Origin: a virus
Reading direction: 5' to 3' (one strand)
IMG/VR virus record: IMGVR_UViG_3300050821_003682
Coordinates: 1-41,976 of that record
Length of the DNA stretch: 41,976 bases
Part shown: positions 2,100-34,870 of the stretch, in pieces
Layout: each line of letters starts with the position of its first letter
Position numbering within the stretch: the first letter of the stretch is position 1
Notes under the pieces: model-generated
The model's input: the letters and a program-made list of their open reading frames with translations, nothing else
The model's database searches: none
Told to the model about the DNA's origin: nothing
Translations under genes and position numbers: made by a program

Positions 2100-3507
2100 G
2101 AAAGGAGGCGGTGGTGGAGGAGGCAGTGGAGCGATCCAGATCCCTTCCGCGCTCAATTCCAGCGGCGGGGCCAGTCTCTTACAGAACGTATTTAATCCGC
2201 TGGGTACGTACGGATCCGAGATGATGGGCGGCTTGGGCAGCCTGGCTAATTGGGCGGCTAATATCGCAACTGGCGGCAATGTATTGGGTGCTCAAGGAAC
2301 ACTGCCGCAGAATGGCTTATTAGCAGGTGGCACCGGTAAAGTCTTTTCGCCTTTTACGAACGCATCCGACAGCAGCACGCTTGGGCCTTTCTTATCACAA
2401 GCGCAGCAGGGCTTGACCGGCATGGAAGCCTCGACGATTACGGGGCAAAACCTGCTTAATACTGGCGTCAATCAGGCTGCGGCGGATCAGACGCAGGCTA
2501 ACTGGCTGACGCACAAGGGGAACGTAATGCTGAGCCAGGCTACAAATGGGCCTGGCCTATTCCCTAGTCAGCAAGCCCAGATCACTCAAGCGGAACAGAG
2601 CCAGCAGGCCGCTGTTCAACAACAGCTTGCTAACGAGGGACTGGGAGGCTCTAGCGTCAACGCTCAGTTGCAAGGACAAGTTAAGATGAGTGCTGCGGCT
2701 GCAGCTGGTCAATTGGTTCAGGGCAACATCTCTGCTGCAAACCAAACGGTTGGCCTCGGACAGACTGCCACCGCCCTCCAGCAAGAACAGCAAAAGATAG
2801 ATCTCGCGGCCCAGCAAGCGCTTTACGGCCAGTTCGCCGGAATCGCTTCTCAGTCTGCATCGATACAAGCCCAGATGTGGAGTGAAGCTCAGCAAGGTTA
2901 CGGCACGCTCGGTCAGATGATGAATTCGACCTTGGCCGCTTTTGGGTACTCGATGAAGACCCAAGAGGACGTCTTGCAGGCTAACGAGACGACGGCACAA
3001 ATCCAGGCCGGCATTGCGACAAGCCAAGCGCAGATGGCGCAGCAAGGGGCCTCCAGCATGTTTGGGGCGTTGGGGTCGCTTCTAGGTCAGGGAGGAAGTG
3101 GCGGCGGCCTATTGGGTGGGTTAATCGGTACTACTGGTAGCGGAATAGCAACAGGTTCTCTCGGGGCTGGAATTGTCGGTCAGGTAGGGGCGACAGCCGG
3201 AACCGGGATACTGGGTGGCCTTGGAGGAGCGCTTGGCGGAATTGGCAGCGGGATAGGTGCGGCGGTTAGCGCTCTTGCTGCTTCTTCTTGTACGGCCGGC
3301 CGTGGAGTAAAAGGAGTAACTGATATTCGATGGGTGCTTTTCCGGGATTGGATTCTTTACAGAGCACCTAGTTTGATTAGGTCGCTTTATGTCGGTCACT
3401 CAGAATCGATAAACGATATCCTGGTTCGTTATCCTTGGGCTCGAGAAGTCATTCTTTTCTTGGTTGATCAGGTGGTGGAACATGACCAGAACACAAGAAC
3501 GGCTTAA
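2092..3507 (+). CDS. Gly/Ala/Gln-rich internal virion (ejection-type) protein with Cys-led C-terminal domain
   Basis: A 471-residue protein starting at TTG, chosen because GGAGG at 2081-2085 sits seven bases upstream and no other start is available. Residues 3-13 are almost all Gly. Residues 95-320 are Gln/Ala-rich helices, typical of phage internal or ejection proteins. Residues 325-393 are Gly-rich and membrane-compatible. A distinct domain starts at SSC (Cys400) and runs to about residue 465 with WVLFRDWILYRAPSLIRSLY, aromatic and basic. From memory, similar Cys-led tails (C-x3-R-x-V-x-G followed by FRxW) recur at the ends of phage internal proteins. The last 26 bases overlap the YcaO gene. 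It may be the YcaO/TfuA substrate; that is inference. Confidence 0.65.
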   Translation: MGKKGGGGGGGSGAIQIPSALNSSGGASLLQNVFNPLGTYGSEMMGGLGSLANWAANIATGGNVLGAQGTLPQNGLLAGGTGKVFSPFTNASDSSTLGPFLSQAQQGLTGMEASTITGQNLLNTGVNQAAADQTQANWLTHKGNVMLSQATNGPGLFPSQQAQITQAEQSQQAAVQQQLANEGLGGSSVNAQLQGQVKMSAAAAAGQLVQGNISAANQTVGLGQTATALQQEQQKIDLAAQQALYGQFAGIASQSASIQAQMWSEAQQGYGTLGQMMNSTLAAFGYSMKTQEDVLQANETTAQIQAGIATSQAQMAQQGASSMFGALGSLLGQGGSGGGLLGGLIGTTGSGIATGSLGAGIVGQVGATAGTGILGGLGGALGGIGSGIGAAVSALAASSCTAGRGVKGVTDIRWVLFRDWILYRAPSLIRSLYVGHSESINDILVRYPWAREVILFLVDQVVEHDQNTRTA

Positions 3508-4675
3508 AAGCGCTGAAAGGCTTTGCAAGCTATCCTATGATTATCTGTTCGATAATTTTGGGATAACCAGGATCAGCGATCTGACTGGGTTGGATGTTAT
3601 CGGTGTTCCTGTCTGGTCTAGCACTCGACCGATAGCGCACACCATTACCTTCTCGGGAGGTAAGAATCTGAACCCAACCTTAGCGAAAGCCGGAGCGATT
3701 GCCGAGGGGATTGAACTCTCTATTTTCGAGAAACATCATGAACCACAAATCCACGGTTTTTATCCTCCTAGAGTCCTTCAAGAGTTACCGATAAGGAAGG
3801 GGTTTGAGATAGGCGGAGGTCATAAATTCCCAGGTGAGATTGTTACTCATTACATGTCGGGTGCTGACGTGTTTTTCCCTAGCGATTTGATTTGGCTGAA
3901 TGTCCGAAAAGAAACGTCTGCGTTCCAGAGGAATTCAAACGGGCAAGCGATCGGTTCTAGCATGGAGGACGCTATCGTTCAAGGGCTCTATGAATGTGTT
4001 GAGCGCGACGCGATGACGATCCGAGCGGAAGCTCAGAAAGAATTCGGAGTGTTTGCGCCCAGGATTGATTTAAGCAACGCCGTTGGGTCGGTAAAGACTC
4101 TGATCGATATTTGCGCGAAAGCGGGGCTGAAGATATACGCCTTCTGTCTGACGTTCGATATCCGTGTTCCGAGCGTGAATGTCTTTCTGGTTGATCCGTC
4201 TGGTTATTATATGCCGACCGTAGGTATGGGAACCAGCATCTGGGACAGCGTGGCTATAGAGCGCGCGATCATGGAGGCAATACAAGGGAGGCTAGTCTAC
4301 ATCAGCGGCGGCCGGGACGACATCTACTTGAGCGATTTCTATAAAGCTAAACAATCCGACCAAAAAGCAATGTGTCGACGGTTTGAAGGACTACCCGTCC
4401 AGGCGACCCCTAATTGGGAGGTAAGAGATTACGAGATAAGCGATGAGCTGGAAATCCTGCTAGAGATGATCGGGCATTGGCGGGACCGAGTACTAGTAAA
4501 AGAGATCCCTGGGGAATTCCCGGCAGCGAAAGTTTTTATACCGGGACTCGAGACTATCGTGACAGAGGATTGGCAACCTGGACGCTGGAAGCATGTTCGA
4601 AACAAATATGAAAAAGACTTTAATCTTTGTCGGTCCAACTCTTTACGGGACAGAGCTGGAGCATTTGCAGGATGA
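3482..4675 (+). CDS. YcaO-family ATP-dependent peptide-backbone-modifying enzyme
   Basis: A 397-residue protein from ATG 3482 (an in-frame TTG at 3464 is also possible). YcaO enzymes activate backbone amides with ATP and form azolines, or thioamides when paired with TfuA. The three family blocks are all present: an N-terminal ATP-site block around residues 59-78 (GGKNLNPTLAKAGAIAEGIE), RNSNGQAIGSSMEDAI leading into YECVERDA around 150-177, and GMGTSIWDSVAIERAIMEAIQGR around 248-270. No Pro-rich C terminus of the azole-forming type is seen; PGLETIV near the end resembles TfuA-associated members. The gene overlaps the preceding virion gene by 26 bases and TfuA by 68. Such a pair inside a phage late operon is unusual. 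The Mg/ATP residues look intact, so it should be active. Confidence 0.88.
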   Translation: MTRTQERLKSAERLCKLSYDYLFDNFGITRISDLTGLDVIGVPVWSSTRPIAHTITFSGGKNLNPTLAKAGAIAEGIELSIFEKHHEPQIHGFYPPRVLQELPIRKGFEIGGGHKFPGEIVTHYMSGADVFFPSDLIWLNVRKETSAFQRNSNGQAIGSSMEDAIVQGLYECVERDAMTIRAEAQKEFGVFAPRIDLSNAVGSVKTLIDICAKAGLKIYAFCLTFDIRVPSVNVFLVDPSGYYMPTVGMGTSIWDSVAIERAIMEAIQGRLVYISGGRDDIYLSDFYKAKQSDQKAMCRRFEGLPVQATPNWEVRDYEISDELEILLEMIGHWRDRVLVKEIPGEFPAAKVFIPGLETIVTEDWQPGRWKHVRNKYEKDFNLCRSNSLRDRAGAFAG

Positions 4676-5159
4676 AGTTTGGTTACCACCAGCAGGACAG
4701 GGAGATGTTTTGAAAAACGTACTTACATACAACCCTAAGCAACTGGTTCTGATCGACGGAACTTTTTATCACACTCTTTCTGTTTGGATTAAAGAGCTGC
4801 TTTATGCCATGGCGGTCGGGGTGCGTTGTATTGGAGCTTCATCGATGGGAGCGATGCGGGCCGCTGAACTCTGGCGATACGGTATGATCGGGATCGGCGA
4901 GATCTTTGAAGCGTACCGCGAAGGGTCAATACAAGACGACGCTTGGGTAGCGATGAGTTATGATCCAGAGACGTATAAACCGCTTACTGAAGCACCATGC
5001 GGGAGCAAGCAAAAGAGACTAGATGCGTTGAAAGCGATTCAGTACGCAAGGGATAATCAGGATTATCCGCCGACTAAGCTCAAGATGTCGGAACTGCGAC
5101 CGCTTTTTACCGGAGTCCTAGACAAAATTCTTGAGAACAACACTCTGATTTATGGCTGA
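4608..5159 (+). CDS. tfuA: TfuA-like protein (YcaO partner, probable thioamidation)
   Basis: A 183-residue protein from ATG 4608 (MKKTLIFVGPTLYG); an in-frame ATG at 4593 would add five residues. The TfuA core is clear: FVGPTLYG at the N terminus, a GTFYHTLSVWIKELLYAM helix, GASSMGAMRAAEL, then GMIGIGEIFEAYREG followed by DDAWVA. In methanogens and thioamide RiPP clusters TfuA works with YcaO to put sulfur into the backbone amide, probably by presenting or releasing sulfide. The start lies within the YcaO 3' end and the stop overlaps the next start, so the two should be co-translated. Function is from the family; the substrate here is unknown. Confidence 0.85.
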   Translation: MKKTLIFVGPTLYGTELEHLQDEVWLPPAGQGDVLKNVLTYNPKQLVLIDGTFYHTLSVWIKELLYAMAVGVRCIGASSMGAMRAAELWRYGMIGIGEIFEAYREGSIQDDAWVAMSYDPETYKPLTEAPCGSKQKRLDALKAIQYARDNQDYPPTKLKMSELRPLFTGVLDKILENNTLIYG

Positions 5160-8566: not shown

Positions 8567-8586
8567 TTGTCAGTCAATGCCTGACA
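8567..8586 (+). promoter_or_regulatory. dispersed start-site motif, copy 2
   Basis: TTGTCAGTCAATGCCTGACA, the best match to the consensus. GTCAG and CTGAC form a perfect 5-base inverted repeat around a 7-base loop containing ATG 8577, the start of the 1620-residue protein. No Shine-Dalgarno is present. CTATT lies directly upstream and could serve as a -10-like box. Confidence 0.6.
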
Positions 8587-11500
8587 ACCCAGATCTCACG
8601 AGCGATTTTGCCGGGTACGGGTGGTTTGGCCTAAATCCTGACGGATCAGTTGATACCCAGGACAAGGGACAAGGCGCTTGGGGCGCTAACACTCGGGACC
8701 CGACTCTGCGCGGGGTAGCTTTACCCGAGGACACTATACGTCGCTACATCGGTGACCCGCACTCCTCCGCTATAGAGAACGCGATACTTCGGGGGGCGTA
8801 CCAAGTTGAGGTTACCTCTGGAGACGGTCGCAAGGTCTCGGTTCCGATAGTAGACATAGGCCCAGGAAAGTCCACCGGCCGTGGGATCGATCTCACTTAT
8901 GCCACGGCGAAGGCACTCGGGCTGACTGACGGGACCGGTGTTGTCCATTACCGACTTTACGCCGCAGAGCAAGGCTTGCAACAGCCGCAGGCTAGCAACG
9001 GTGATACCTCTGGTGATTTACCGCCCATTGAGGAAGCGGAGGGCGGGGGGCAAGAAACAGCGCAGACTGAAACTCCGCAGGCCGCGCAAACGATTGACCC
9101 CTCGCCTCTCGGGATGTTCCGGCAACAACACCCGGAATATGCCGGCCAATCGGACGAGGACATTACTAAGAAGCTTTTCCAAATCAAGAGCTTCGGGATG
9201 CAGCAGGACGAGTTTGCGAAAGCGCTCAAAGATCCAAATGGCGCTACAACGATCAAGCAGGCGCAAGCTAAGTTTGAGCAGGCTAAGAACCCGCTTCAGC
9301 GCTTCATGGATCAGAACCCGCAGTACGCGGGGCAAGAAGAGGCGGTCAAGAAGAAGCTTTTCGAGTTATACAAGCCCAAGCATCCGCAGGTAACGCAAGA
9401 CGAGTTTAACCACTTACTTGAGCCGGATGGCGGCCACCAGAGTTGGGCGAAGGTTGTAGCTGACACGACGATAGCAACTGCCAAAAAGCTAATTCCTCAG
9501 ACACAAGTGGCAGGGATGGAGCTTTGGAAGGATCTGAACGAGATGGAGAATACGGCCATAGATCGCAATCTCGATTCTGCTTTTGGGATGGCCTATCCAG
9601 ACGCGACAACTCCCGAGCAGAAACAAGCGTATTACTCCAAGTTCTTTGCGATCAAGGACCAGAGCGAACGCGAGAAAGCCTTCATCGCTGATCTAACCAA
9701 GCAGCCTGGAGCGATGGAGAAACTTCAGCAGCAGGGGAAAGACGTCACACAAGTTGTCGCTGAGTTTGACGCAGGGATGAACGGCTTAGAGCATCGGCAG
9801 GAGATGGAGAAAACCCATGCTTGGATGGGTAAAGTTGTTGGTCAACTCGATAAGGAATCGCAAACGTATCTTCCGGAAGCGCAAGAGAAAGTCGCAACGT
9901 TCTTAGCCCAACAGCCGGCTAATTTGATAATTGCTGCTGTTCCAGGTCTACGAGAAACGGGCAACTACGCCATGCTCGTCGGTCAAAACCGCCAATATCT
10001 TGAGACTAAGATGCCGACGCTGGGGAGCGATCAGATCGACCAGATGGCGCGTAAGATGGCCGATGTTCAGTTCCCGGCGCAAGAGGTGGCTTCGCTTATC
10101 ATGATGAGGGGAGGAGGGGCGCTCACTGCCGGGCTGACTAATAAGGTCATGCGGGCGATTGGTGACGTTGTCCTTTCCGGTGGCGCTGGTGCTGCGGCTT
10201 TCACTAACAACCAGTTGATTCGGAACCTGACTGCGAAACAGCCGTTGACTCAAGGGATACCGGAAGCTGTAGGCGAGGGCTTTGCTGTCGGAGCAATCGG
10301 CGGCGGCATGGGCTTAACGGTGCGCGGTATCTCGCAGTTCCTTTCGACGAGCATGAAAGGAAAGCAGGTCTCGGGCACTCTTGAAAAGGTGTCGATCATG
10401 ACGCCGAAAGAGGCGAACGACTTTGCGGAAGGTGGGAGTGAGAACCCCGTTGTCCAGTCGCGCGACTACACGGCGCTGGATCTCGGGATTGCTGCGACCG
10501 AACAGCACGCGCCAGATCACCCAGCTTTGCAGGAGGCTAAAGATGCTCGCGATGCAGGAAACTCCCAGGAAGCGCAACAGCATCTCGATACGGTCTTGCA
10601 GGATCAGCCGCCAGAGACTCATGAGGCGATCGCATCTACGATCCGCTCGATGGTCGACACTCTCGTTGAAAAGCCGCACGAACGCACGCAGACGCCAGCG
10701 ACCGAATGGAAAGAGCTTGGGGCGGCTGAGACTGAGGCGGACGTTCCGGCGGGTGCTGAGACGAAGGTTGATCCGAAGACTGGGGCTACGTCATGGCGGA
10801 TGCCAGCGAGAGATCAGCAGCCTGAAGTGACCGCTCCATACTTCGGGACCGACGAAGCGCCACGGGAAGGTGTTGAGGTAGCACCACGCGAGAAACCAGA
10901 AGTGGAAGGAACGCCACTCGGATTCATGCCTGAGGACATCTTCAAGGCTGGCCGACGTACGGTTGGTTGGCTGAGTCATTTCACGCACTTCGACGAGTTT
11001 GCTAAGAAATGGAACAACGCGATGGCTCCCGAGCGTAATGCCCAAGAAGCGCGCGATGTGGCGCAGATCGGTCGCGGTACTGTGGCAGGTGAAAAGAACC
11101 AAGCGGTGTTGGCGGTTCGCCAGATTGCCGAGGCAAACAATCTTGACAGCGTTATCAGCGGCGGCCTTAAGAGCGAAAGGCGAGCGCAGGAGTTTACGAA
11201 ATACGGCAAGGCGAAACTAATCGAGATGATCTCGGCTCGTGAGCGCGGTCAAAAGATAGGAGACGAGAAGCTCGACAAGCTGTTCGATTTCTACAACTCG
11301 GTCACCGATTACTTCGGCAAACGCGCGCTCGCTAACGGGCTGAAAATGGATAGTTGGATCGATAACTATTTTCCGCACATGATCAAGGGCGACAAGGCTA
11401 CGCAGGCCGAGGCGGTGTCAAAGATCAAACGCATGTGGGGTGATCCTTCTTTCACGAAGCATCGACAGATCCCTACGACAGATTTGGCGGTGAAACTCGG

Positions 11501-13439
11501 CTACGAGATGCGCAGTTACAATCCGGAGCATGTCATCCAGGCGTACGTCCGCAGTGTTAACCGGGCGATCTCTCAGGTCCAGTTACTCAAGCAGATGGAA
11601 GCCGAAGGCTACGCTTGGAACAAGAAAGACTATGTTCCAGATATCGCGAAGGATTGGCCGGAGATCCGCACGCCTGACGGTGTAACGCGCCACGTCGCGC
11701 CAGACACTAAGCCGGTACTCGATAACATGTTCAGTCTGTCGAGCATCTACGACACGCTGGCGGGGCCGGGAACGCGCCTCGCGGGCATCGTGAAAGGCTT
11801 CACTGGGATAAAGTTCGCTTGGTCGGGCTTTCACGCAGTTCACATCATGGGCGTTGACTTGGCGCAGGCCTTGGCGTCAGTCGAGAAGCGGGCGATGCGT
11901 GGCACGCTCAAAGGGGAGGACTTCATGAATCTCCTAGGACGCGCAACCGGACCCGTCGAGATGGTTCGTAAGGGCGGCGCGCCGTTTGGTTCATATAAAG
12001 GCCAGTTTGGCAATCTGATCGAGGTAATGCGCGGCGAAGCTTCTCCTGAGACGCTGTCCGACGCAGACAAGATCAACCGCCGCGACTTGCTGGAGATGGG
12101 CATTGTCCCGCATGTCAGTCACGATCGAGAGATGGCGTGGACTAATTGGATAAGTCAGCAAGCCAACAAGATTGGACCAGCTTCCAAAGTGGCCGGACTG
12201 GGCTACAAGCTTCTGATCAGCGAGCCGTATCAGAAGTACATGTTTGGGAAACTTATCCCGGCGCTTAAAATCAGTTCTGCGCTCGAAGCCCGAGACAGTC
12301 TCCTGCGCGAGAATCCAAACCTTCGTGCGCCGGAGAACAAGATCCAGCGGATGCGCGAGTACGACCGGATACAGCGCGACATCGAGGGCCGGTTTGGCGA
12401 GATGAACTATGACAACCTCCTTTGGAACGGGATGGCGAAGCAGCTAGGAATCAACGTCCCAACGAGCCTGGGTTGGACGCTAGGTTTCTGGCGAATCTAC
12501 GGTGACGGCGTGACAGATACGATCCGCAAGTTCACGCATTTGGATGAACTCGCAGCCGCCAAGCTGCGCGGCGAAAAGCCCGAGCTAATCACCGAGAGAA
12601 TGCTCTACATGGCTAATTACTCGGCACTGGCGATGATCTCTTGCACTCTCGCTTCTTACGCGGCCACAGGGGCCTATCACGGCATCATGGATGCGTTCTT
12701 TCCTGCGGTCGGGACCGACAAGCAAGGCAAGCCGGTCCGCGTCCGAACGCCGTTCTTCACGACCGAATGGGCGAGCCTGTACGCGCATTACAACAAAGAA
12801 GGGCTCGGATTAGGCGCGCTCGATTACTTTGGAAATAAGCTCAACCCAGGCCTTCAAACAATATGGGAACTCATCAGGAATAAAGACTTCCGAGGGAGAG
12901 AGGTTCGAGATCCCGATGACCCGTGGCCACAACAAAGAGCTGACGATGTGTGGTTCGCGGTAAAGAACCTTGGCCTGCCGATCTCGTTCGAGAATCAACT
13001 AAGCAAGGACAAGGTGCAGGCGCACGAAGGGCTTGCCATGTTCCTTGGTTTGTCCCCTGCTCCGACGTGGACCGGACGAACAGGCGCTGAGAACGACATC
13101 ATGAACGCCTATTTCCAAGAAAAGGGCGAGTCGCCTGCCATGAGCAAAGCAAAGGCGGATGTGTACGACGCCAAGAAAGTCTATCAGCAGGCTATAGTCG
13201 ACAAGGATCCTGGCGCGATTGCTAAGGCAAAGGCTGAGCTACATCGGCTAGGAGTAGCAGACAAAACGATTAACGACGCAGAGAGAACCGCTGCAACACC
13301 TCCTGCGGATCGTCTCTTTAAATATCTTTCGAATAAGAGGCAGATCGCTATTCTTAAATCATTTAATCCTCAGCAACGCGCTCATTATCTCCCGCTCGCC
13401 AAGAAGGAAGTGCAGCATGAATGGTATCAGCAGCATTGA
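8577..13439 (+). CDS. very large ejection-type virion protein with N-terminal RlpA-like double-psi beta-barrel
   Basis: A 1620-residue protein. Residues about 8-128 form an RlpA-like double-psi beta-barrel (PIVDIGPGKSTGRGIDLTYA, candidate acid Asp93), a wall-active fold that could cleave peptidoglycan during DNA entry. Residues 177-216 and 239-281 are two copies of a 40-residue repeat (FxxQxPxYAGQ...KKLF...DEF). The remainder is mostly helical and charged with two hydrophobic stretches (near residues 1075 and 1350), like polyvalent or ejection proteins of podoviruses. The start ATG sits in the dispersed motif. It is the largest gene of the window, and the final 23 bases overlap the next small gene. 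Confidence 0.75.
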   Translation: MPDNPDLTSDFAGYGWFGLNPDGSVDTQDKGQGAWGANTRDPTLRGVALPEDTIRRYIGDPHSSAIENAILRGAYQVEVTSGDGRKVSVPIVDIGPGKSTGRGIDLTYATAKALGLTDGTGVVHYRLYAAEQGLQQPQASNGDTSGDLPPIEEAEGGGQETAQTETPQAAQTIDPSPLGMFRQQHPEYAGQSDEDITKKLFQIKSFGMQQDEFAKALKDPNGATTIKQAQAKFEQAKNPLQRFMDQNPQYAGQEEAVKKKLFELYKPKHPQVTQDEFNHLLEPDGGHQSWAKVVADTTIATAKKLIPQTQVAGMELWKDLNEMENTAIDRNLDSAFGMAYPDATTPEQKQAYYSKFFAIKDQSEREKAFIADLTKQPGAMEKLQQQGKDVTQVVAEFDAGMNGLEHRQEMEKTHAWMGKVVGQLDKESQTYLPEAQEKVATFLAQQPANLIIAAVPGLRETGNYAMLVGQNRQYLETKMPTLGSDQIDQMARKMADVQFPAQEVASLIMMRGGGALTAGLTNKVMRAIGDVVLSGGAGAAAFTNNQLIRNLTAKQPLTQGIPEAVGEGFAVGAIGGGMGLTVRGISQFLSTSMKGKQVSGTLEKVSIMTPKEANDFAEGGSENPVVQSRDYTALDLGIAATEQHAPDHPALQEAKDARDAGNSQEAQQHLDTVLQDQPPETHEAIASTIRSMVDTLVEKPHERTQTPATEWKELGAAETEADVPAGAETKVDPKTGATSWRMPARDQQPEVTAPYFGTDEAPREGVEVAPREKPEVEGTPLGFMPEDIFKAGRRTVGWLSHFTHFDEFAKKWNNAMAPERNAQEARDVAQIGRGTVAGEKNQAVLAVRQIAEANNLDSVISGGLKSERRAQEFTKYGKAKLIEMISARERGQKIGDEKLDKLFDFYNSVTDYFGKRALANGLKMDSWIDNYFPHMIKGDKATQAEAVSKIKRMWGDPSFTKHRQIPTTDLAVKLGYEMRSYNPEHVIQAYVRSVNRAISQVQLLKQMEAEGYAWNKKDYVPDIAKDWPEIRTPDGVTRHVAPDTKPVLDNMFSLSSIYDTLAGPGTRLAGIVKGFTGIKFAWSGFHAVHIMGVDLAQALASVEKRAMRGTLKGEDFMNLLGRATGPVEMVRKGGAPFGSYKGQFGNLIEVMRGEASPETLSDADKINRRDLLEMGIVPHVSHDREMAWTNWISQQANKIGPASKVAGLGYKLLISEPYQKYMFGKLIPALKISSALEARDSLLRENPNLRAPENKIQRMREYDRIQRDIEGRFGEMNYDNLLWNGMAKQLGINVPTSLGWTLGFWRIYGDGVTDTIRKFTHLDELAAAKLRGEKPELITERMLYMANYSALAMISCTLASYAATGAYHGIMDAFFPAVGTDKQGKPVRVRTPFFTTEWASLYAHYNKEGLGLGALDYFGNKLNPGLQTIWELIRNKDFRGREVRDPDDPWPQQRADDVWFAVKNLGLPISFENQLSKDKVQAHEGLAMFLGLSPAPTWTGRTGAENDIMNAYFQEKGESPAMSKAKADVYDAKKVYQQAIVDKDPGAIAKAKAELHRLGVADKTINDAERTAATPPADRLFKYLSNKRQIAILKSFNPQQRAHYLPLAKKEVQHEWYQQH

Positions 13440-14952: not shown

Positions 14953-15255
14953 ATGAATATATTCCAAAAAATAGAGTCCTTCTTCGGTTGGGGGTCAAAA
15001 CCCACTACGCCGCCGGCGCCTTCTCAATTCCAATCCGTAATTGACGAGACTGGAAAAGTTGTTGATACGGTTGAGAACTCAGTAAATACGCTTCAACCGT
15101 TCGTTTCGGTTTATCCACCGCTCGCCGGGTATCTATCGGCAATCGCTATCGCCGTTCATGCGCTGGATAGCTACGTGGATACGCTGGAGACTCCGACTCC
15201 TGTTGCCGTGCCTACGCCGGCCGCGCCGGGAGCGATACCGACGGCCAATCTGTGA
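14953..15255 (+). CDS. small Pro/Ala-rich protein of the lysis-type cluster
   Basis: A 100-residue protein. The N terminus MNIFQKIESFFGWG is amphipathic, the middle (residues 50-78) carries a hydrophobic stretch (YLSAIAIAVHAL), and the C terminus is Pro/Ala-rich and disordered. It begins a row of four small membrane-type genes with overlapping ends (GTGA with the next). A lysis or membrane-accessory role is inferred from position only. Confidence 0.5.
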   Translation: MNIFQKIESFFGWGSKPTTPPAPSQFQSVIDETGKVVDTVENSVNTLQPFVSVYPPLAGYLSAIAIAVHALDSYVDTLETPTPVAVPTPAAPGAIPTANL

Positions 15256-15503
15256 ACTTACTGGCTTTATTGGCTGCTGGTGCTCCATCACAGGTTGGAG
15301 CACCTAATTTTGGGGCTTGGGGGCATTACATTTGGTTCATCGTCATCCTGTGTCTGATTATCTTTGTCGTATGGTGGGCATGGTCGCAACTGGCCGCGAG
15401 AGTTCCTGAACCGCTCCGAACCGTCCTCGTTGTTTTAGGGATTATCGCGCTAGCGTTAGTTGTCATCTTTTATGTTCTTTTGCCCTTAAGCGGGCTTTTC
15501 TGA
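15252..15503 (+). CDS. small membrane protein, holin candidate
   Basis: An 83-residue protein from GTG 15252, overlapping the previous stop as GTGA. Two strong transmembrane segments at residues about 27-47 and 57-78, joined by a short loop with RVPEPLR. Size and topology fit class II holins, but three neighbouring membrane genes compete for that role. Confidence 0.5.
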   Translation: MNLLALLAAGAPSQVGAPNFGAWGHYIWFIVILCLIIFVVWWAWSQLAARVPEPLRTVLVVLGIIALALVVIFYVLLPLSGLF

Positions 15504-15507
15504 CGCT

Positions 15508-15813
15508 GTGAACTTCTTCGTCAATCTGATCTGGAAGCATCTCCTTGCTGCCGTGGTCTCTAATTGGGGCACGACAGTAAACGGACTTATCGGGGCCATC
15601 CTCTTGGCTGGTCCGACCCTGTACCATACCTACATCGAAGGCCATTCATTCCAGACGACCGATTGGGCGCTGGTTGGTACTGCGGCATGGCTTGTCATCT
15701 GGAACGCGCTACGGGCCAAATTCAGTTGGTCTAGTATCCTTGGAGCGATGCTCTCCGGCGCTCCTCGCGCACAGTTGGCTGACATGACTAAGGAGAACAC
15801 CACAAAGAAATGA
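15508..15813 (+). CDS. small membrane protein, holin-like
   Basis: A 101-residue protein from GTG 15508. Hydrophobic segments lie at about 24-40 and 53-69, followed by a polar, lysine-ended tail (TKENTTKK). The pattern fits phage holins that end in a charged C terminus. It overlaps the next gene as ATGA. Assignment rests on topology and context. Confidence 0.5.
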   Translation: MNFFVNLIWKHLLAAVVSNWGTTVNGLIGAILLAGPTLYHTYIEGHSFQTTDWALVGTAAWLVIWNALRAKFSWSSILGAMLSGAPRAQLADMTKENTTKK

Positions 15814-16001
15814 GAAGGCGACGCAGAGGCAGATCAAGGGATGACGACTCAGGTTGGTTATTTTTAATGGTCTTTCTCGCCATCGCTTTAATGGTGAGCC
15901 TGATTGTTTTTGTAGCGTTAGATCCAATGAGAATTCTTTGGCTTCTGGCAGCGTGGTCATTCGGCTACTTCGCGACTTGGTTGTACGGAAAATACTCATA
16001 A
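15810..16001 (+). CDS. small membrane protein with Arg-rich N terminus
   Basis: A 63-residue protein, coupled by ATGA. Residues 2-10 are nearly all Arg, followed by DDD, then transmembrane segments at 16-37 and 41-58. The positive N terminus predicts that it stays in the cytoplasm. Could be a holin or antiholin in the lysis cluster. The stop overlaps the next ATG (TAATG). Confidence 0.5.
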   Translation: MRRRRRGRSRDDDSGWLFLMVFLAIALMVSLIVFVALDPMRILWLLAAWSFGYFATWLYGKYS

Positions 16002-16163: not shown

Positions 16164-17483
16164 ATGGTTGTTTTCGCGACGACATGCAAGAATCGGACGG
16201 ACCACTTGCGGAAAACTCTGCCGCGCAATCTCGCCGATAATCCTGATTCTAGGTTCGTAGTCCTAGATTACAATTCGGGCGACGACCTGATCCCGTTCCT
16301 TCGTACTCTCGAAGGGCCTATCGCTGACCGCCAACTGACCGTCTACAGTTACGCCGGGTGGCCTAAGTTTCGGATGGCGCACGCCAAGAATATGGCGCAT
16401 CGGCTGGGAATCGTTGAGGGCGGCCAAGTGATTGTAAACCTCGACGCGGACAACTTCGCCGGCCCGAACTTCCATGAGTTGGCTCAAGAGATGGTGGCTC
16501 TCGGGCCGGATGTGTTTTTGTGGGCCAACATGGTCAAAGGCGAGATGGATCGAGGGATCAGTGGCCGGATCGCTGTTTCACCGCAACAGTTCCGAAAAGT
16601 CGGGGGCTACGATGAGAAATACTTCGCTTGGGCGTCCGACGATAAAGATCTGAATCTCCGGTTGCGAATGGTTGGCTACCAGGGAATCGAGATCGATAAA
16701 CGCTTTCTGTCTGCCGTTAAGCATAACAACAAGCTCCGATTTAAAGAGTACCCACACCTGGCGTCTTCTCCCGAATCGTATTTCACCGTTGACCCATCCT
16801 GCATAAAGAAAGCCGTAGTTAATGATGGGCGAGTCGGTTGTGGGACCGTGTACCGAAACTTCGATCGAGATGATATCGTTGATATTAAGCCAGTGGCGAC
16901 TCGAGTCTTTGGCGTTGGTCTGTCAAAGACTGCCACCTCTTCGCTGCACAAGGCGTTCAGGATTCTAGGCTACGATTCTTGGCACTGGTCGAGCGCGCAC
17001 ACGGCCAAAGCGATCTGGCAAGAGATGAACACCAACGACCGGTCGCTTACAGTGGAACGGTTCGAAGCGCTCTGTGACCTTCCGATTCCGCTCCTTTACC
17101 AGAAACTGGACGCCGCGTACCCAGGATCTAAGTTCGTTCTGACGATCCGAAACGAAGCGAAGTGGCTGGATTCGATGCGGCGCCATTTCATGGCAGGCCA
17201 TAATCCTTGGAAAGCTAATTGGAATAACGATCCGTTCACGCATCGAGTGCATCAGTTGACCTACGGCCGGTGCGATTTCGACGCTGAGATGTTTCTAGAA
17301 CGATACCGGCAGCACAACGCTGAAGTCATGGAGTACTTCAAATTCAGGCCGGAAAGCTTGGTAGTGTTGCGGATGGACAAGGGAGATGGGTGGCAGAAGC
17401 TTTGCGCGTTCCTTGATAAACCGATCCCGAGCATACCGTTCCCGCATGTGAACAAATCAAACTTATGGTCATTGCAACAATAA
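16164..17483 (+). CDS. glycosyltransferase-sulfotransferase fusion protein
   Basis: A 439-residue protein. The N-terminal half looks like a GT-A glycosyltransferase: FATTCKNRTDHLRKTLP opening, Asp-Ala-Asp at 94-96 (metal/NDP-sugar site), and WASDDKDLNLRLRMVGY at 156-172. The C-terminal half starts near residue 248 with FGVGLSKTATSSLHKAFRIL, a PAPS-binding P-loop of the sulfotransferase type, followed by PGSKFVLTIRNEAKWLDS at 320-337. Such a pairing would add a sugar and sulfate it, or modify a host glycan. No membrane segment or signal is seen, so it should act in the cytoplasm. The acceptor is unknown. Start 16164 is fixed by an in-frame stop just upstream. Confidence 0.75.
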   Translation: MVVFATTCKNRTDHLRKTLPRNLADNPDSRFVVLDYNSGDDLIPFLRTLEGPIADRQLTVYSYAGWPKFRMAHAKNMAHRLGIVEGGQVIVNLDADNFAGPNFHELAQEMVALGPDVFLWANMVKGEMDRGISGRIAVSPQQFRKVGGYDEKYFAWASDDKDLNLRLRMVGYQGIEIDKRFLSAVKHNNKLRFKEYPHLASSPESYFTVDPSCIKKAVVNDGRVGCGTVYRNFDRDDIVDIKPVATRVFGVGLSKTATSSLHKAFRILGYDSWHWSSAHTAKAIWQEMNTNDRSLTVERFEALCDLPIPLLYQKLDAAYPGSKFVLTIRNEAKWLDSMRRHFMAGHNPWKANWNNDPFTHRVHQLTYGRCDFDAEMFLERYRQHNAEVMEYFKFRPESLVVLRMDKGDGWQKLCAFLDKPIPSIPFPHVNKSNLWSLQQ

Positions 17484-18064
17484 AAGGCATACAGGTCGAT
17501 CAAGATGAGCAATCCTACCGAATCACTTGGACTAGTGGCGCCGCTGTTGACGCGGATGCTGCTAATGGACAAGCAGGGAAACCCTTTGCGTATCGATATC
17601 CCGACAATGATGGATGGGACACTCTTGCTGACGCCGGATACCCAAGTCAGTCATGGACTGACGTCCTCTACGACGACGGAACCGGACACCCGTTAACCGA
17701 CGGCCACGGCAATGCGTATTCGAAGACTAGTTACGTCTGGCCGGGTCGCTCAGTGGCCGAGAGAAGCGTGGATGCTTGCACGGTTCCTTACGCCGTGGTT
17801 AATCCTCATGTGCGCCGCAATTCCATTGGAGTGGTTATTGGATGCCGTGTTGTCATTTCGTTTAATGGTCGCCAAGTTGAAGCGGTGGTGGCGGACGTGA
17901 GCGGACCGAACGATATCGGCGAGATTTCAGTGGCGGCGGCTGAAGCGCTCGGGATCAATCCAAGCCCTCGTAGCGGTGGAATCGATTCGGGTGTATCCTA
18001 CCAACTGTTTCCCGGTACAGCGGCAGTCATTAACGGGATAACGTACAGTTTGCAACCAGCTTAA
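17465..18064 (+). CDS. double-psi beta-barrel (RlpA-like) wall-active protein, endolysin candidate
   Basis: A 199-residue protein starting inside the end of the fusion gene. Residues about 103-186 show the RlpA-type pattern: CTVPYAVVNPHV, GCRVVISFNGRQVEAVVADVSGP with Asp144, ISVAAAEALGI, and YQLFPG. RlpA-like proteins are lytic transglycosylases, so this could be the endolysin after the holin cluster; no other lysozyme-like gene is seen. There is no signal peptide, fitting holin-dependent release. It could also be a virion wall-degrading part. A perfect inverted repeat similar to the dispersed motif lies inside at 17646-17662. Confidence 0.55.
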   Translation: MVIATIKGIQVDQDEQSYRITWTSGAAVDADAANGQAGKPFAYRYPDNDGWDTLADAGYPSQSWTDVLYDDGTGHPLTDGHGNAYSKTSYVWPGRSVAERSVDACTVPYAVVNPHVRRNSIGVVIGCRVVISFNGRQVEAVVADVSGPNDIGEISVAAAEALGINPSPRSGGIDSGVSYQLFPGTAAVINGITYSLQPA

Positions 18065-33244: not shown

Positions 33245-34870
33245 ATGTACCTGAGCCCTTTCCCTACGCGCCGCAAAGAAGATCTCTTTCGGGTGCTAGC
33301 GGATTGTCGCTCAGATGCTCCAGCGCGGCAGACCTTCTATGACTCCTGTAAGCGGCGCTATCTATCGGGTGGGACGCCGCTAGATTCAGCGCGAGTTAAT
33401 AAGATCGGTCCTTTCGTCGAAAAGAAAGCGGCGCTTCTTTACTCGCCGGATAGCCTACGCTTCTGGGTTAATGTTCCGCCCGACGAAGAGTCGCAGGAAA
33501 GCTTTCATCAGACTGATCCAGTAGCAGACTTCCTAGCTGAAGCTTGGGCTGACACCGATTCGGATGTGCTATTCAGTGAGGCGGTTACTTGGTCGTTAGT
33601 CAATGGAGCATCAATCCTGACCTTTATCCCCGAGCTAAAGACTAACGGCGAAGTTAACATCGTCACCCACCTGATAGATAACCCTGCCGACTTCGGTGTC
33701 TGGCGGCCAGGACAAACGGATTTGCGGCGTCAGCAGGCTATGAGTCTTACGACTTACTGGACTCTTGCCGAGCTAGAGATCCGGCTACGTCATCATCCGA
33801 TGGGACCGAAGGTGCTTTATGAACTCGCTACCCATAAACCGAACCAAGACTCAGGAGGAGGCGTTATTGAAATGGGGCCTTCGGCTACGGTTTATAAAGC
33901 CGACTGGAATGCTGCTCGCTCTTATTCGTATCAGGCGCAGTATCCCCAGACCTATTATCAGTTGCATGATCTCTACTACTTCGATGATGATCGCGGCGAC
34001 TGGATGGTTGCAACGATTTCTGGGTCGTGTGTCCTATACGATCGGCCTATTGAGGTAGTAGGACTACCCGGCACGCCACCGTTCATTAAGGTTTGTCCTA
34101 ACAACATCCCTGGTTACTTCTGGGGTAAGTCTATGGTCGAGGATCTGGCCAAGCTTCAGCAATGGTACTCGGCGCGCCTGGAAGATATGGACGACTTGTT
34201 TGCTAAGATGTTGCGTCCACCGAAAGCCGCTTACGGTATGGGGCAAGGATTCGAGGGAAAGCTAGCATCGCTAAATCGGCCTGGAGGTAAGGCCGCTTTT
34301 CCTTCGATGAACTCCAAGGTTGAAGAGTTCAAGTCTATGATGTCTCCCGAGATGTTTGAGATGATGTCCGGGATCGATGTCAACTTTAGTTCTGCTTCCA
34401 ACATGGAAGACTTGCTGCAAGGTAAGATGCCCGGTGGCGCTAAGGGTGAGGCAGGGATGGGAATCGCCAAGCGTCTCGGAGGCGCTGTCATCTCGCGTCA
34501 AGCGCTAGCGATCGAGAAACAAGTTGAAGATGCAGCCGGTCTTTTACTCAAGCTCCTCGCCCGTTATCACGCTGACCCGTTAATGGACGACAACAACAAA
34601 CCTTTCTACCTCGCTCAGTTCGCTCCCAACTTTACCGTCAAGGTCGATGGCCGATCCAGTTCGCCGCTCAACATGGACGACACCCGGCAAGATGCGCTCG
34701 TTCTGAAGAAGTTCGGCGCGATCACCAATACCGACCTGATCGACATGATGCATCCGGCGCAAGCCAACAAGTTTAAACGCCAGCAGAAAAAGATCCAATG
34801 GATCGAGATGCTGGCCCAGAAAGTAGTAGAGATACAACAGCAACAAAAGCGGTCCGGTAAAGCCGCTTGA
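33245..34870 (+). CDS. portal protein
   Basis: A 541-residue protein, a usual portal length, in the right place after the terminase and HNH. Features fit: VEKKAALLYSPDSLRFWV near the N terminus, IKVCPNNIPGYFWGKSMVED in the middle, and DNNKPFYLAQFAPNFTVKVD with a Gln-rich C-terminal helix. It forms the ring at the capsid vertex through which DNA enters. Assigned from organisation and sequence character. Confidence 0.75.
   Translation: MYLSPFPTRRKEDLFRVLADCRSDAPARQTFYDSCKRRYLSGGTPLDSARVNKIGPFVEKKAALLYSPDSLRFWVNVPPDEESQESFHQTDPVADFLAEAWADTDSDVLFSEAVTWSLVNGASILTFIPELKTNGEVNIVTHLIDNPADFGVWRPGQTDLRRQQAMSLTTYWTLAELEIRLRHHPMGPKVLYELATHKPNQDSGGGVIEMGPSATVYKADWNAARSYSYQAQYPQTYYQLHDLYYFDDDRGDWMVATISGSCVLYDRPIEVVGLPGTPPFIKVCPNNIPGYFWGKSMVEDLAKLQQWYSARLEDMDDLFAKMLRPPKAAYGMGQGFEGKLASLNRPGGKAAFPSMNSKVEEFKSMMSPEMFEMMSGIDVNFSSASNMEDLLQGKMPGGAKGEAGMGIAKRLGGAVISRQALAIEKQVEDAAGLLLKLLARYHADPLMDDNNKPFYLAQFAPNFTVKVDGRSSSPLNMDDTRQDALVLKKFGAITNTDLIDMMHPAQANKFKRQQKKIQWIEMLAQKVVEIQQQQKRSGKAA

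Follow-up and report, generated by a model that had tools for sequence, protein, structure and literature searches.

A candidate single-chain sulfoglycosyltransferase recurring in environmental phages

The locus

The stretch of DNA analysed here in its entirety, the window, is a virus record of 41,976 bases that carries genes for a terminase, a major head protein, an SU10-type adaptor, RecT and a nuclease. Near the end of a long run of genes on the + strand lies one that joins a glycosyltransferase (GT) to a sulfotransferase (ST) in its product. The features that concern us are these:

16164..17483, + strand: GT-ST fusion gene; predicted bifunctional protein of 439 aa in an uninterrupted frame; 61 further viral contigs carry this fusion
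16164..16859, + strand: predicted GT-A glycosyltransferase domain, residues 1–232 (PF02709/PF10111; fold matches; DADN 94–97, D160, D162, H187)
16899..17462, + strand: predicted PAPS sulfotransferase domain, residues 246–433 (PF17784; fold matches; conserved motifs)
17465..18064, + strand: following gene, weakly GH75/DPBB-like (PF07335, E = 1.6e-4, under the curated cut-off); context only
15252–15503 and 15810–16001, + strand: small membrane-protein ORFs upstream, holin-like by hydrophobicity alone; context only
33245–34870: portal-like ORF, assigned from position alone (PHROG match absent)

The translation of 16164–17483 is stop-free for 439 codons, as the original prediction of one 439-residue protein had it, and the ATG with which it begins agrees with the usual start of the family (MVVFATTCKNR versus MIVFCTTCKGR). 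It contains every motif named in that prediction: DAD at 94–96, WASDDKDLN, the P-loop GVGLSKTATSSL, and PGSKFVLTIRNEAKW. A frameshift, by which the one protein would become two, was looked for and not found; the unbroken fusion recurs in 61 further viral contigs.

The gene had also been placed between a lysis-type cluster and a wall-active protein. The lysis cluster is plausible but unproven: two short ORFs upstream contain strong hydrophobic segments (Kyte–Doolittle maxima of 3.28 and 3.15), and a Pfam scan of 15252–15503 returned no family above cut-off. The wall-active protein comes down to the weak GH75/DPBB likeness of the following gene, the start of which overlaps the end of GT-ST by 19 bases. 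Pfam scans detected no integrase family among the 52 main ORFs of the window, and no nucleotide-sugar genes within it. Two other features of the window deserve mention. Within the + strand run, overlapping YcaO (3464–4675; PF02624, E = 2e-40) and TfuA (4593–5159; PF07812, E = 7e-29) genes form a thioamidation-type pair in a phage, matched below their cut-offs by NCBIfam models for McrA-glycine thioamidation. And a 1620-aa protein (8577–13439, +) with a weakly DPBB-like N-terminus looks, by eye, like an internal virion or ejection protein.

The glycosyltransferase half

Two Pfam glycosyltransferase families, Glyco_transf_7C (PF02709; E = 4.9e-7, residues 125–179) and Glyco_tranf_2_2 (PF10111; E = 3.6e-5), together span residues 125–192. 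The first scores 29.7 bits against a curated cut-off of 23; PF10111 and PF13641 stay under theirs. Compared by Foldseek, the GT half of the predicted model matches K4 chondroitin polymerase (K4CP; 2z86, E = 1e-8), the Leptospira glycosyltransferase 6p61, ppGalNAc-T2 and heparosan synthase, and these matches to GT2/GT7/GT27-type enzymes such as K4CP and ppGalNAc-T2 bear out the GT-A-like domain that had been proposed for the N-terminus. Both a DxD-type metal/nucleotide motif and, downstream, an acidic (D/E)DxD segment are present. Among 62 fused proteins, DADN 94–97, D160 and H187 are invariant, and D162 is conserved in 92%.

With K4CP (2z86/2z87), heparosan synthase 2 and ppGalNAc-T2, then, the phage domain shares the GT-A fold, the DxD-type motif and the W..(D)DxD segment. 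It differs from them in being a single GT-A module of ~230 aa, and the likeness is remote: identity to K4CP is 11–14% in the structural alignment, and the match to PDB profiles has an E-value of 0.0024.

The sulfotransferase half

The C-terminal half is assigned by Pfam at residues 247–433 to Sulfotransfer_4 (PF17784; E = 3.2e-40), with 138.7 bits against a curated cut-off of 22.8, and solved sulfotransferases match it by sequence at E ~1e-13 when the protein is used alone and 1e-18 with the family profile. By Foldseek, this half of the predicted model matches a schistosome SULT (5tiv, E = 5e-12), Cpz8 (9kf2, PAP-bound) and SgdX2 (8y9p), so the sulfotransferase-like domain of the original prediction can be taken as a PAPS sulfotransferase fold. 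Whether the PAPS pocket might be missing was also checked, and by motif and alignment its residues are there: K255-T256-x-T258 for the 5'-phosphosulfate loop, R329 and S337 for the 3'-phosphate, and a putative acceptor-binding D305. T256, T258 and D305 are invariant in the 62 fused proteins, K255 and R329 are conserved in 98%, and S337 in 94%.

D305 aligns with the Asp of the TTDLP segment of the schistosome SULT. In the Schistosoma mansoni enzyme, the substrate hydroxyl that accepts the sulfate is bonded by Asp91 (PMC4618941), and from the alignment we read D305 as the probable counterpart of this residue. The Sulfotransfer_4 enzymes 5tiv, 9kf2 and 8y9p (the latter two being Cpz8, from Streptomyces, and SgdX2) thus have the fold, the 5'-phosphosulfate loop, the 3'-phosphate R/S pair and the aligned Asp in common with the phage domain, but they are stand-alone chains, whereas the phage domain is fused to a GT. 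The G of KTGT is usually A (KTAT) in the fused STs, which form a clade apart.

One chain

The original prediction had proposed structure prediction and fold comparison of the two halves. An AlphaFold2 model of the full chain, made with 31 fused homologues as input, has a pLDDT of 91.3 and a pTM of 0.89, and in it the halves match GT-A and sulfotransferase folds, respectively. The linker is short and conserved, and the placement of the domains relative to each other is predicted with confidence.

The mean identity of the 62 fused proteins is 52%. Distance matrices for the GT and ST halves are correlated (Mantel r = 0.54, a value reached in 0 of 2000 permutations), indicating that the halves travel together, and the fused ST domains group as one clade (SH-aLRT 99). 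In three pairs drawn from L016, L017 and L019—the three that are unsaturated, others being saturated in one or both halves—dN/dS is 0.04–0.10 in each half. These ratios, calculated from sequence, point to purifying selection on both the GT and the ST.

Distribution

Scans of the viral_contigs collection with the window's single protein or with its terminase as probe gave no matches; alignments were needed. GT and ST alignments found 80 and 58 loci there, respectively, and GT-ST fusions in 61 IMG/VR contigs of 4–265 kb, or 56 once identical copies were dropped. When the fused alignment was used in a further scan, about a dozen more appeared, bringing the total to ~70 virus records. Wherever the GT half is more than 40% identical to that of the window, an ST follows in-frame, barring truncated contigs and one 153-aa fragment; in the fusion of L046, the ST is broken close to the contig end. 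More distant phages have GT-only proteins of ~240 aa (28–36% identity), and ST-only proteins. The combination had been called unusual. For described enzymes it is; in environmental phages, with at least 61 contigs, it recurs.

Cells are another matter. A scan of 84,980 species genomes that relied on two ST motifs, and could thus miss distant cellular fusions, found the full-length fusion in three MAG contigs only (L146, L147 and L148). Two of these three are phage: L147 has terminase- and portal-like ORFs, recognized by eye, and an ST nearly the same as that of viral L042, while the ST of L146 is identical to that of viral L100. L148, apparently an alphaproteobacterial chromosome with ORFs read by eye as SDR, patatin and aldo-keto reductase, is the sole non-phage setting found. 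An Octadecabacter plasmid match (H6, query 183–432) was rejected as a fusion, being a stand-alone ST with an upstream part that aligns across stop codons. Two BFVD entries, A0A6J5QD79 (Caudovirales) and A0A3G4ZUI3 (Edafosvirus), align at low identity to most of the model and are possible further GT-ST fusions, one of them in a giant virus.

Transferases are combined in other ways, too. Phage proteins use the ST as a module with different partners: Methyltransf_24 (L112 2630–3904, L113 808–2220 and L120 5308–6525), Stealth (L128 5980–7290) and PhyH dioxygenase (L136 5929–7530). The ST domains of these are only 31–37% identical to that of the window. In another phage contig (L078 5416–6738), a methyltransferase is joined to a GT domain.

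Neighbouring genes

Within 6 kb of the fusion, neighbours are mostly unshared, the commonest other family occurring in 16 of 62 records. Either the fusion has moved among different phages, or its carriers have diverged far. GDP-mannose dehydratase and FkbM methyltransferase appear twice each among the families listed in a Pfam tally of 147 fusion neighbours. In L011, an epimerase-like ORF lies upstream of the fusion and a DegT aminotransferase downstream; in L061, Methyltransf_24 lies downstream, a homologue of which is carried by L092. A 270-aa protein without Pfam match adjoins the fusion in 16 contigs (including L014 8326–9132 and L108 6594–7400). It is probably this protein that accounts for the 11 neighbours that match phrog_19005, and its motifs, judged by eye only, resemble those of a papain-like peptidase. 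L002 (MT837976.1), a record named as a human-faeces phage, encodes a homologue of the GT next to a radical-SAM-like gene, and may be bacterial DNA.

One neighbour bears on the chemistry. APS kinase (CysC) makes PAPS, the sulfate donor of sulfotransferases. Full-length APS kinase (PF01583, with E-values as low as 2e-62) is encoded, as a separate gene, in six of 63 fusion-bearing virus records (L014, L053, L054, L104, L260 and L271), the 63, searched whole, being sets of 50 and 13, a few of which hold only part of the fusion. In all six the kinase gene is on the same strand as the fusion and no more than 1.5 kb downstream, with none elsewhere in any record, and in L054 and L104 its frame overlaps the fusion stop. 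By comparison, no full-length APS kinase was found in 50 phage records with the GT or the ST only. Nor was APS kinase found in the window or in ~90% of fused records, though many records are fragments and these absences are lower bounds. A neighbour in L025 (7242–8108) was rejected as an APS kinase and left out of the count; it is a kinase and nucleotidyltransferase (adenylyltransferase)-like protein, the likely ATG of which overlaps the fusion stop.

Since the kinases of L260 and L104 are 97% identical, the six records represent five APS-kinase lineages. Four of the five fall in one weakly supported subclade of the ST tree, and the kinase may therefore have been gained independently only twice. 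The association is a pattern spotted after many neighbours had been viewed rather than a pre-set test, and no PF01747-type ATP sulfurylase turned up in the 17 records searched for it. Adjacent APS kinase is indirect support for PAPS as the sulfate donor of the predicted ST.

Proposed function

Our preferred reading, to which we give a probability of roughly 0.68, is that the GT-ST protein is a bifunctional sulfoglycosyltransferase, specific to viruses, by which a sugar is first attached and then sulfated. We infer both activities, their sequential action on one substrate, the donor and the acceptor. The N-terminal GT-A domain would transfer a sugar from a nucleotide-sugar donor, most likely UDP-hexose or UDP-HexNAc, to an acceptor in the cytosol. 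The C-terminal domain would then transfer sulfate from PAPS to a hydroxyl on the sugar just added or on a group next to it, and the outcome would be a short, negatively charged, sulfated glycan deposited by the phage. The sulfate donor would normally come from the APS and PAPS of the host; some relatives may draw on an APS kinase of their own, encoded next to the enzyme.

A hydrophobic segment of transmembrane strength is absent from 60 of the 62 fused proteins, and so the acceptor is probably cytosolic: a virion protein prior to assembly, for example, or a lipid- or nucleotide-linked glycan at the inner face of the membrane. We slightly favour a virion surface protein over a host envelope glycan, at somewhat short of even odds. 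That the carriers share little within 6 kb fits poorly with one dedicated virion protein as the acceptor.

The same spread among phages otherwise little alike suits a different role, remodelling of the host envelope, in which the sulfated sugar would be placed on an LPS, capsule or exopolysaccharide precursor in the cytosol and would block the receptors of competing phages (superinfection exclusion) or otherwise alter the surface. The GT half resembles capsule and exopolysaccharide enzymes (K4CP, heparosan synthase), EpsD-type models match six of 31 members, sugar-nucleotide genes adjoin the fusion in L011, and stand-alone STs occur in glycan loci of alphaproteobacterial plasmids. Set against this, the protein lacks a membrane anchor, no flippase or Gtr-like partner was seen in the window or among the 25 of 61 neighbour families listed, and the lack of an integrase family leaves lysogenic conversion unsupported in the window. 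A host envelope glycan is a possible acceptor, if on the unlikely side. It is less probable again that the domains are fused for co-expression only and act on different substrates, the ST sulfating a small molecule or peptide. STs of the same family (Cpz8, SULT-OR) do sulfate small molecules, and the window has its YcaO-TfuA peptide-modification pair; the short conserved linker, the confident inter-domain model and the correlated evolution of the halves all speak for joint action. A link to RiPPs, suggested by that pair and by the radical-SAM-like neighbour in L002 (read by eye), was dropped when YcaO was found in none of the 50 other fused records searched.

Protection of the genome by glycosylated and sulfated bases seems very unlikely, and DNA a correspondingly poor candidate for the acceptor. 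Phage base-modification systems with glycosyl- and sulfo-transferases figure in the part of a virome paper (PMC10829341) that cites Iyer et al. 2013. However, TET/JBP, thymidylate synthase and hydroxymethylase are absent from the 52 window ORFs (Pfam scan, E ≤ 0.001) and such families are missing, too, among the 25 of 61 families listed for the 147 fusion neighbours, while the GT fold is nearest to glycosyltransferases that act on polysaccharides and proteins, and its best 50 matches include no DNA glucosyltransferase. The least credible reading is that of a chance fusion or dead gene, bacterial cargo without function in the phage. The window's own peptides, used as probes, did find no close relative in viral_contigs. 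But motifs and fusion alike are kept across dozens of phages, purifying selection is strong, and fused homologues from cells are all but missing, by which this reading is largely refuted.

Significance

Glycosyltransferases and sulfotransferases are each known from phages. The ~70 records with the fusion, some with a gene for making the sulfate donor at its side, suggest that sulfated sugars are built by many soil viruses unrelated to one another. The NCBIfam and PHROG collections hold no family that covers the GT-ST fusion, and we found no description of a conserved single-chain combination of the two in the open-licence literature. The broadest form of our preferred reading, a bifunctional sulfoglycosyltransferase, is tentative, and we regard it as rather less probable than not: that many unrelated environmental phages coat their own virions with sulfated glycans by means of a virus-specific enzyme of single origin, some of them with a PAPS-making kinase of their own.

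With an enzyme that is nearly restricted to viruses, conserves both predicted catalytic sites, has its own PAPS source in certain lineages and is widely spread among phages, the sulfation of glycans by phages becomes open to direct test, and the GT-ST protein is a compact candidate for the production of sulfated sugars. If the proposal is true, a charged surface modification would join the phage–host arms race, and sulfated glycosylation of virions would be a widespread phage trait.
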